Of a stretch of 64,000 bases of DNA, positions 3,146 to 5,307 are shown in pieces (position 1 is the stretch's first letter; each line of letters opens with the position of its first letter). The stretch comes from Curtobacterium sp. MCBA15_012 (lineage in GTDB: Bacteria; Actinomycetota; Actinomycetes; Actinomycetales; Microbacteriaceae). The notes below the pieces were generated by a model. The model was not told where the DNA came from. It worked only from the letters and a program-made list of their open reading frames with translations, and ran no database searches. The position numbers and the translations under genes are program-made. The stretch lies in assembly GCF_001864935.2 (NCBI RefSeq), contig NZ_CP126267.1, positions 3,472,001 to 3,536,000 of the forward strand. The letters run 5' to 3'.

Positions 3146-3268
3146 AACCGATGCTGGATCCGGCACCGCGCCTCCAGGCCGGTCCTAACGGGTTCCTGAC
3201 GGCCTGCTGTCGGACGCATGCGCCGCCCTAACGACCGACGCGGCGCGAGCCGCGGATGCTCAGCCTCG

Positions 3269-3298
3269 TTGCCGAGGCCGGGGCGACGCTGGTACCCT
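3269..3298 (+). promoter_or_regulatory. Predicted promoter of the Abi-upstream RNA
   Basis: TTGCCG (3269-3274) and TACCCT (3293-3298) are separated by 18 bp, a reasonable housekeeping-sigma promoter. The predicted start is near 3304-3306, just before the terminator-like hairpin. Confidence 0.5.
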
Positions 3299-3303
3299 TG
3301 CAG

Positions 3304-3349
3304 CATCACGATCGGCCCGCTCGCCTGACGGCTCGGGCCGATTTTCTTG
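3304..3349 (+). ncRNA. Candidate hairpin RNA/attenuator upstream of Abi gene
   Basis: ATCGGCCCG (3311-3319) pairs perfectly with CGGGCCGAT (3334-3342). Inside the loop a further GCC/GGC stem closes a TGAC tetraloop. TTTTCTT follows directly (3342-3348), the layout of an intrinsic terminator. Together with the promoter at 3269-3298 this would give a 40-50 nt RNA ending 18 nt before the Abi start codon. It could be a discrete small RNA or an attenuator for the Abi gene. Abi_2/AbiF-family proteins have been linked to adjacent small RNAs in recent literature, as far as I recall. The structure is seen; the function is inferred. Confidence 0.5.
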
Positions 3350-3366
3350 TCCCGGGGGGAGACGAG

Positions 3367-4359
3367 GTGCCCTACACGAAGCCGTGGCTGTCGATCGACG
3401 ACCAGATCGGGATCCTTCGCCGCCGAGGACTCGTCATCCCGGACGTCGAACGCGCGGCGGCCGTGCTGCACGAGGTGGGGTACTACCGGCTCACCGGCTA
3501 CCTCTACCCGCTCCGGCAGTCCCACACGGTGATCGATGAGCGCGGACGAGCGTCGGTCGTCGTCGAGGAGCAGTACCGCGTCACTGCCCGGTTCGACCAC
3601 GCCTGCGAACTGATCGCCTTCGATCGAGCGCTGCGCTTGCTGGTCCTCGAGGCCGTGGAACGGGTCGAAGTCGCTATCCGCACCAGGCTCGCGCACGTCC
3701 TCGGTCGGCTGTCGCCGTTCGCCCACGAGGATCCAGCAGCATTCAGTGCGGCCTTCACCGCCTCGGGATCGGACCCCGACCGGCGCAGCGAACACCAGCG
3801 GTGGCTGGGCCGGCTCGAGGACCGGAAGGGCCGTTCGGATGAGTCGTTCGTGACGCACTTCCGCGATCGGTACGACGGACACATGCCCGTCTGGGTCGTC
3901 GTCGAGTTGCTCGAACTCGGGCAGGTGTCGCGGCTGTACGGCGGGCTCCGGAACGATCTCGCCACCGAAGTCGCCGCGGCGTTCTCGGTTCCGACGAAAC
4001 AGTTGATGCGGAGCTGGCTCGCGTCCGTCAACTACGTGCGCAACGTCGCTGCCCACCACTCGCGGTTGTTCAACCGCAAGCTTGTCGTCGCTCCCAAGCG
4101 CCCGACCGCGGCGCAGGTCCCGGCGCTCGCACACCTCGGTTCCGGATCGGCACCGAAGCGTTTCGGCGTCTACGAGGTCTTGGCAGTCCTGGCGCATCTG
4201 CTCGATGCCGTGCCTTCCGACGAGGACTGGCAGGTGCGGACGGCGGCACTCCTGTCGTCCTTCCCGGACATCGACGGGATCGACGTCGGCTCGACCGGTG
4301 CAGATCCGGCATGGCTCCAAGAGCCGCTCTGGAACCCCCGGCAGACCCGCGCCGTCTGA
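3367..4359 (+). CDS. Abi family (Abi_2/AbiF-type) HEPN-fold abortive-infection protein
   Basis: The 330-residue product begins VPYTKPWLSIDDQI and carries the family segments GYYRLTGYLYPLR (residues 38-50) and SVNYVRNVAAHHSRLFNRKL (220-239). Two Rx4H motifs are visible, R105-TRLA-H110 and R225-NVAA-H230. These are the RNase-type signature of HEPN domains, so an RNA-cleaving abortive-infection or toxin role is likely. The GTG start is chosen because GGGGGAG lies 6 nt upstream; the frame is open further upstream to 3256 but would run through the hairpin. Its base composition appears less GC-rich than its neighbours, hinting at transfer. Its stop TGA directly abuts the stop of the convergent WYL gene. 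Confidence 0.85.
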   Translation: MPYTKPWLSIDDQIGILRRRGLVIPDVERAAAVLHEVGYYRLTGYLYPLRQSHTVIDERGRASVVVEEQYRVTARFDHACELIAFDRALRLLVLEAVERVEVAIRTRLAHVLGRLSPFAHEDPAAFSAAFTASGSDPDRRSEHQRWLGRLEDRKGRSDESFVTHFRDRYDGHMPVWVVVELLELGQVSRLYGGLRNDLATEVAAAFSVPTKQLMRSWLASVNYVRNVAAHHSRLFNRKLVVAPKRPTAAQVPALAHLGSGSAPKRFGVYEVLAVLAHLLDAVPSDEDWQVRTAALLSSFPDIDGIDVGSTGADPAWLQEPLWNPRQTRAV

Positions 4360-5307
4360 TCAGCCACGACCGGCGTCGAGCAACCGTGCCGCGAGCGCCT
4401 CCACCGCGACCCGCAGCTCCTCCGGCCCCTCGACCGTGAACGGCACCGTCGTCCCGGCGAGCACCCCAGCGAGTCCGTCCCACGACCACGACCCGAGCGT
4501 CACCCGCCGGCGACCCTCCCCCGTGGGCTCGACGACGGCGTCCTCCGGCAGGAACGGTGCGATCCGCTCGGCGTCCGCGGCCGTCATGAGTACCGACCCG
4601 GTGCACGGCCACACGTCCTCGGTCGACGAGCCCCGGAACCGTGCCGAGACGAACGCCGTGACGTCGCCACCCGGGACCGGTCGCGGGGTGAACGCCAGCC
4701 GGGTGGGCATCCGCGGCACGATCCGGTCGACGCGGTAGGTGCGCCAGTCGTCGTGCTCGGGGTCCCACGCGAGCAGGTACCAGCGGCCGTTCCGCGCGAC
4801 GACCGCGTGCGGCTCGACGCGGTGCGGGGTGTCCCGCTCGCCGTAGCCGAAGCGCAGGACCTCGTGGCGGCGGACGGCCTCACCGACGGCGACGAGCACC
4901 TCGGGGTCGACGCGGGTCCGCCCCGGCGCGGCCACGGCGTCCACCAGGTCGACCCGGTTCCGCAGCCGTTCGGGCATCACCTGGCGCACGGTGGCGAGCG
5001 CCCGGGTCGCGGCCTCGGCGATGTCGGCGCCCGAGGCCGGGGCGACCGCGAGGGCGAGGGCGATCGCGACGGCCTGCTCGTCGTCGAAGAGCAGCGGCGG
5101 CAGGTCCGAACCGGCGGCGAGCCGGTAGCCGCCCGCGGGTCCGCGCACCGACTCCACGCGGTACCCGAGGTCCCGGAGCCGGTCGACGTCGCGGCGGAGC
5201 GTGCGCGGGCTGACGGCCAACCGGGTCGCGAGTTCGTCGCCGGCCCAGTCGCGGTGCACCTGCAGCAGGGAGAGCAGCGACAGCATGCGCGAGGACGGTC
5301 CGGACAT
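4360..5307 (-). CDS. WYL-domain transcriptional regulator (YafY type)
   Basis: A 315-residue regulator. The N-terminal winged HTH (residues ~1-60, MLSLLSLLQVHRDW ... LAVSPRTLRRDVDRLRDLGY) is followed by a WYL domain containing HAVVARNGRWYLLAWDPEHDDWRTYRVDRI and a C-terminal WCX-like part. Such proteins bind DNA and sense small ligands. It is divergent from a VOC-fold protein gene, and a perfect 10-bp-arm dyad (5326-5350) lies between them, so autoregulation and control of the neighbour are likely. Start at 5307 with GAGG 8 nt upstream. It converges on the Abi gene with no spacer. Confidence 0.88.
   Translation of the reverse strand: MSGPSSRMLSLLSLLQVHRDWAGDELATRLAVSPRTLRRDVDRLRDLGYRVESVRGPAGGYRLAAGSDLPPLLFDDEQAVAIALALAVAPASGADIAEAATRALATVRQVMPERLRNRVDLVDAVAAPGRTRVDPEVLVAVGEAVRRHEVLRFGYGERDTPHRVEPHAVVARNGRWYLLAWDPEHDDWRTYRVDRIVPRMPTRLAFTPRPVPGGDVTAFVSARFRGSSTEDVWPCTGSVLMTAADAERIAPFLPEDAVVEPTGEGRRRVTLGSWSWDGLAGVLAGTTVPFTVEGPEELRVAVEALAARLLDAGRG

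Follow-up and report, generated by a model that had tools for sequence, protein, structure and literature searches.

A conserved hairpin RNA upstream of an Abi_2/AbiD gene of Curtobacterium suggests an AbiF/AbiFr-like RNA-antitoxin module

Results

The RNA-gene cassette and its insertion site

The window, i.e., the whole 64,000-nucleotide stretch of Curtobacterium sp. MCBA15_012 that was analysed, which spans G000:C1:3472001-3536000, carries a short cassette with a predicted promoter, a hairpin RNA that we call type A, and an Abi_2/AbiD gene (Table 1). This cassette sits between two genes which we take, from their sequence, to be kdpF and the gene of a WYL-type regulator. The latter is convergent and adjoins the stop codon of the Abi_2/AbiD gene (4357-4359), whose GTG start at 3367 lies 18 nt past the RNA tail. 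The similarity to five empty sites ended at window positions 3233-3237 and, where it was seen again, resumed at 4371-4410; the cassette appears to carry the promoter, the RNA and the gene only, at about 3238-4370. A repeated element suspected near 3211 was rejected, being present once in the window and part of the kdpF-side sequence common to the empty sites.

Table 1. Predicted features of the cassette (window positions) and the solo type-A RNAs found at the purC site
Feature	Position	Strand	Details and basis
Promoter of the RNA	3269..3298	+	TTGCCG 3269-3274, 18-bp spacer, TACCCT 3293-3298; sequence and homologues
Type-A hairpin RNA, predicted antitoxin and intrinsic terminator	3305..3350	+	Leader ATCAC, 5' end placed from the -10 box; conservation, covariation, model match
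Outer stem	3310-3319 with 3334-3343	+	9 Watson-Crick pairs and one G-U
Inner stem	3323-3325 with 3330-3332	+	Sequence
Tail TTTTCTT	3342-3348	+	Sequence
Putative ribosome-binding stretch, purine-rich	3354..3361	+	GGGGGGAG; sequence only
Abi_2/AbiD protein gene, 330 aa, predicted HEPN ribonuclease toxin	3367..4359	+	Pfam, PADLOC, 8vz6 match
Inserted cassette (promoter, RNA, gene), approximate extent	3238..4370	+	Empty-site comparison
Solo purC-site RNAs (L106, L107, L139, L140, L141)	near 1501-1547 of these loci		Type A

Of 30 fetched Curtobacterium loci, eight hold the RNA-gene pair at the kdpF-WYL site and 22 lack it. The pair was also recovered in other actinobacterial families and on two plasmids, where the RNA match lies in both cases directly 5' of a gene annotated as encoding an Abi family protein. 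The GC content of the Abi_2/AbiD gene (0.678, with 0.849 at third positions) is below that of kdpA (0.706 and 0.972), of the WYL gene (0.748 and 0.922) and of the window (0.738). The lower GC noted in the initial annotation was thus borne out, and the transfer that it had suggested is supported by the GC content together with the patchy occupancy, the plasmids and the other families. The identical protein is encoded by Curtobacterium sp. UCD-KPL2560; a search of genome contigs for related loci returned this identical gene and nothing further. Abi_2 genes of other clades were also observed at or near the same WYL-type gene (e.g., G048:C3:187168-188877 and G054:C15:345952-353862), and the kdpF-WYL site may therefore be a defence-gene hotspot.

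The Abi_2/AbiD protein

As judged from its sequence, the protein belongs to the Abi_2/AbiD-F family. It matched Pfam Abi_2 with an E-value of 3.3e-49 (168.1 bits for a curated cut-off of 25.6), and PADLOC assigned it to AbiD (E 2.2e-57). A phmmer search against solved structures produced a single match, 8vz6 (E 4.1e-37), covering residues 1-322 of 330; 8VZ6 is the PbAbiF-ncRNA complex (PMC12737573). An AlphaFold2 model based on 28 sequences was mostly helical, with a mean pLDDT of 91.0 and a pTM of 0.88.

Both of the HEPN Rx4H motifs listed in the initial annotation are present, and only the second one, RNVAAH at residues 225-230, turned out to be conserved: R was kept in 79 and H in 80 of 80 aligned rows. 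In the first motif (residues 105-110), R105 was kept in 77 of 80 rows but H110 in only 32, and the idea of two catalytic motifs was dropped. In PbAbiF, the counterparts of R225 and H230 in the alignment are R210 and H215; changing both inactivates that protein according to PMC12373285, from which the PbAbiF numbering is taken. RNVAAH is thus the predicted catalytic motif, and the protein is predicted to be a HEPN ribonuclease toxin.

The hairpin RNA is conserved upstream of homologous genes

The RNA fold of positions 3296-3366 reached -32.3 kcal/mol (z -2.0), 5 of 200 shuffled sequences being equally stable. The fold stability alone was only mildly unusual, and it is the conservation that lifts the hairpin above chance. 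A consensus promoter scan of the locus called no promoter. A scan for terminators found one terminator-like site (0.4 expected), which corresponds to a different and shorter pairing inside the same hairpin.

To collect homologous loci, we screened 66 Curtobacterium genomes, finding Abi_2 matches in 30 with an E-value of at most 0.001, and 398 genomes of the family, where 47 matched the window protein with an E-value of at most 1e-20. We left out G024:C3:55530 as well as L029, L030 and L042, in which tblastn with the window protein found nothing at 1e-3; the short open frames at G378:C1:2679499, G148:C1:784253 and G259:C1:545835 were left out of the protein set, although the RNA was seen in G378. 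Requiring 45% or more identity with the window protein and removing the identical copies L002, L003, L031 and L044, we retained 24 distinct family loci (45.7-100% identity, the window's own locus included). The type-A RNA was found upstream of the gene in all 24, and also in all four loci examined from other actinobacterial families, one of which has a gene with an in-frame stop. The -10 hexamer TANNNT is held at a fixed distance in these 24 loci: its start precedes the A of ATCACG by 12 nt in 22 loci and by 13 nt in two. Conservation is concentrated in the RNA itself, with a mean information per column of 1.72 bits in the 5' half and 1.91 bits in the 3' arm, for 0.18 bits at -60 to -20, 0.60 bits at -19 to -1 and 0.73 bits past the tail. 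The U-rich tail is broken by a C (TTTTCT) in 24/24 type-A loci, which is odd for a plain terminator.

In an alignment of 23 RNAs, 96.7% of the cells were paired, compared to at most 50% when the partners were slid. Double changes affected 8 of 12 pairs and 36 cells, for a mean of 10.0 cells in shuffled alignments, none of the 500 shuffles reaching the observed value. Most of this compensatory evidence comes from seven more distant rows, picked by eye in the hairpin scan, and in some of these the inner stem fails (89.9% of cells paired). The 16 type-A rows alone gave double changes in 1 of 12 pairs (6 cells); covariation within type A is thin because this RNA hardly varies. The initial annotation had described the promoter pair, the hairpin and the GTG start, whose coordinates we confirmed, and had proposed to look for conservation and covariation of the hairpin upstream of homologues, both of which were thus recovered.

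RNA types follow the protein tree

A model of the type-A RNA, R1, was built from 16 Microbacteriaceae RNAs only. In the window's genome (G000), it produced a single match (window 3304-3350, 74.5 bits); the window likewise holds one exact copy, with no tandem repeat and no array. Five of 394 class-wide genomes had an R1 match of 58 bits or more, namely G660, G678, G691 and G805 besides the window's own. These four are exactly the other genomes of the same set with a 52-55% identical AbiD, and in each of them the match lies just upstream of the type-A AbiD gene. Two more class-wide genomes had R1 matches of 35-37 bits with no AbiD adjoining. The type-A RNA and the type-A AbiD clade were thus shown to be associated one-to-one.

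Other Abi_2 clades carry different hairpins in the same upstream slot, namely the type B RNA (GACCGGTTCCGC ... CCAGGGCCGGTC), the type C RNA (GTTCAGCCCGCC ... GGGCTGGAT) and the group D RNAs, which include RF03085, the abiF RNA of Rfam. A TANNNT box was present 16-18 nt before the stem in 30/30 type A, 23/23 type B and 10/10 type C loci. RF03085 exceeded its cut-off in 4 of the 66 Curtobacterium genomes, before Abi_2 genes of other clades, and not in G000. Like type A, RF03085 occupies the slot before Abi_2 genes and has an outer GC-rich stem with an asymmetric internal loop, but its covariance model does not match type A: it gave no match in the window, none within 3150-3400 at E up to 10 and none in six further type-A loci. 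The search of 3150-3400 against Rfam at E up to 10 returned chance matches only, and the type-A RNA fits no Rfam family. The window RNA is thus an RNA type distinct from RF03085 as modelled.

Placed on a tree of 95 AbiD proteins, the RNA types A to F required 5 changes, the minimum for six types, compared to a mean of 48.8 for shuffled labels (0 of 200 shuffles as low as 5). Scored individually, label A requires 3 changes and label D requires 2. Nine A2 loci were counted as A, and keeping them separate raises the total to 6 changes. The labels, given to 99 loci, come from a regular-expression pass that left ten loci unlabelled and one double-labelled; by eye, six of the ten were assigned to type D and two to the single types E and F, two broken genes stayed unlabelled, and the double-labelled locus was placed in C. 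The tree leaves out four loci whose proteins are short or broken.

Type-A RNAs without a toxin gene

In the 66 Curtobacterium genomes, R1 had 14 matches of at least 55 bits, 13 of them beside an AbiD gene. In the 14th (L186, G047:C3:2994974-2995019), the type-A RNA precedes an open frame unrelated to AbiD. Among 21 further family matches (G000 and G009 not being counted again), 11 lie before a long AbiD frame (one of 272 aa), one before a gene with an in-frame stop, two before a truncated AbiD gene, and seven have no detectable AbiD. For one of these seven, L094, a possible N-terminal remnant was seen by eye, with no tblastn match at E 0.05. RF03085 RNAs show comparable situations: the one at L091 (1996-2031) precedes an Abi_2 gene cut to about 44 residues, and the one at L092 (2004-2039) has no detectable Abi_2 gene.

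In the genus of G450, the RNA was detected in 6 of 27 genomes at E up to 1e-5. In five of them (Table 1), it stands with no AbiD adjoining between two genes that are presumably, from their sequence, purC and an acetyltransferase-like gene. The sixth (G846, L142) has only the acetyltransferase side in common and two further changes in the RNA. Searches with an E-value of up to 0.01 detected no Abi_2 at all in G846 or, of the five, in G836, G833 and G146. Abi_2 genes do occur in the remaining two, G450 and G835. All that were placed on the tree have RNAs of other types, and in both genomes a type-B one is found about 5 kb from the solo type-A RNA.

Across the five genomes, 2 of the 46 columns of the solo RNA vary, for a mean of 13.5 per 46-column window, and no window outside the RNA was as low over the aligned 1.6 kb, coding sequence included. 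Variation resumes at once in the flanks, with 12 of 22 columns variable just before the RNA and 30 of 45 after it. These solo RNAs argue for a role in trans. There is a precedent for a free-standing antitoxin RNA in the phage escape mutants with pseudo-ToxI described in PMC5086642.

The solo RNAs could instead be mere terminators of a neighbouring gene such as purC, in which case they would be silent on a role in trans. Their position fits this explanation, since the solo RNA of the five genomes has the same orientation as purC, begins about 25 nt past the stop codon of that gene and has a U-rich tail at its end. We nevertheless consider it unlikely: a terminator could change by compensated substitutions, yet the RNA varies less than any non-overlapping window of the alignment, and a TANNNT box at -12 or -13 is still visible by eye in the five sequences.

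Carriage of the RNA by phages was considered and rejected. The sole viral contig matching the RNA pattern is identical over 1560 bp to the bacterial locus L103, and eight phage BLAST records all had an E-value of 0.6, the two inspected by eye having no such hairpin. At L103 and L123, the type-A RNA is solo and lies close to the beginning of the IMG/VR contig stretch, whose sequence matches a bacterial genome locus without a difference over 1560 bp.

Discussion

Comparison with known systems

The closest systems are the AbiF-AbiFr pairs, i.e., RCd22-AbiFCd of C. difficile and PbAbiF-AbiFr (8vz6). Like the window pair, they combine one conserved HEPN R-x4-H motif with a structured RNA directly upstream that has its own promoter (predicted in the window) and with a terminator before the gene, co-transcription by read-through being expected. 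RCd22 consists of two abiF motifs and a separate terminator, whereas the window RNA is one hairpin that would itself be the terminator. The window RNA also differs in being actinobacterial, in its lack of recognition by RF03085 and in occurring alone. The type III systems ToxIN, CptIN and TenpIN share with the window the order RNA antitoxin gene, terminator and ribonuclease toxin gene, although their toxins are not known to be HEPN proteins. According to PMC5086642, their antitoxins are tandem repeats that fold into pseudoknots, unlike the single hairpin of the window, which has no repeat. Lactococcal AbiD and AbiD1 belong to the same protein group as the window protein (PADLOC AbiD). In the AbiF/AbiD literature covered, to which the primary PbAbiF paper (Cell, 2025) did not belong, we found no earlier description of these RNAs.

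A single hairpin as candidate antidote and terminator

These data suggest that the cassette is most probably an AbiF/AbiFr-like RNA-antitoxin module in which one hairpin serves as both antidote and terminator. For the window pair we infer RNA binding, neutralisation, toxicity, phage defence, transcription, termination and the trigger. From the promoter at 3269-3298, transcription would begin near 3305. It would mostly stop at the hairpin and U-rich tail of the short RNA itself, releasing a free species of about 45 nt, and would in some cases continue into the gene with the GTG start. A single element would be both antidote hairpin and terminator, so that termination would make the antidote and read-through the toxin. 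The HEPN ribonuclease would dimerise, bind the RNA and be kept inactive by it. Once too little RNA was left or the RNA was displaced, for instance after a phage had shut down transcription in the host, the freed ribonuclease would cleave cellular RNA and growth would stop. In the known systems, RCd22 is reported to bind and neutralise AbiFCd (PMC12373285) and AbiFr to inhibit AbiF (PMC12737573). The link to RNA-associated AbiF made in the initial annotation is well supported by the clade-matched RNA types, the conservation, the covariation and the solo RNAs, and the same sequence evidence supports, short of proof, its reading of the RNA as an antidote.

The initial annotation had also considered an attenuator, which is compatible with our results inasmuch as a hairpin and U-rich tail before the gene would let termination and read-through set the toxin dose. 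In its exclusive form, this explanation holds that a 5'-leader terminator acts in cis to limit or regulate the toxin and that the released RNA is functionless. It draws on the hairpin and U-rich tail 18 nt ahead of the start codon, on the translational activation of lactococcal abiD1 by a phage protein that binds its leader structure, as described in PMC2661086, and on RCd22, which according to PMC12373285 also works in cis through termination. A terminator needs a stem and a U tract only, yet the leader, the internal loop and the apical loop region are conserved here and the interrupted tail TTTTCT is kept in every one of the 24 loci. The RNA type moreover matches the protein clade, and the RNA persists nearly invariant without the gene in several genomes. 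We thus regard a purely cis-acting attenuator as distinctly improbable.

A third possibility raised initially, that the hairpin RNA guides the HEPN protein to phage RNA, recalls the proposal that AbiF is the ancestor of RNA-guided Cas13 (PMC12373285; PMC12737573). CRISPR-Cas13-like nucleases use a variable guide or spacer segment, whereas the 24 type-A loci differ at few positions and have no variable or spacer-like segment, and the single copy in G000 is not part of an array. A programmable guide is therefore very unlikely, and this claim found no support. A chance hairpin or an ordinary intergenic terminator unlinked to the gene, for which one could invoke the modest z of -2.0, has practically no credibility in view of the conservation, the covariation, the fixed position in 28/28 loci and the independent class-wide R1 test.

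Pairs of AbiD proteins and RNAs

AbiF-type RNA antitoxins have been proposed as the root of Cas13. In the literature covered, their RNA side is described from few systems and one Rfam model; our results add sequence-distinct RNA families that occupy the same slot across actinobacteria and follow the protein tree. Going beyond the RNA-antitoxin module itself, we tentatively propose, as an idea that may well prove wrong, that actinobacterial AbiD proteins and hairpin RNAs form several mutually exclusive pairs of toxin and antidote, with types A, B, C and further ones in addition to RF03085, and that the RNA of type A now also exists on its own, having escaped to become an immunity gene that disarms incoming AbiD cassettes. 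If this were true, toxin-free genomes would keep the type-A RNA under purifying selection, as an RNA counterpart of orphan antitoxins. With the solo RNAs, an immunity or anti-addiction function in trans can be tested cleanly.

Since the RNA families follow the protein tree, cognate specificity can be tested within one genome, and the window's own has both a type-A and a type-B locus. The latter (L034, G000:C1:1992502-1993182) is a second, shorter Abi_2 gene of 252 aa, counted from the chosen ATG, with its type-B RNA more than 100 nt upstream. At another type-B AbiD locus (L076), three tRNA genes lie at 582-915 on the same 2.9-kb stretch.
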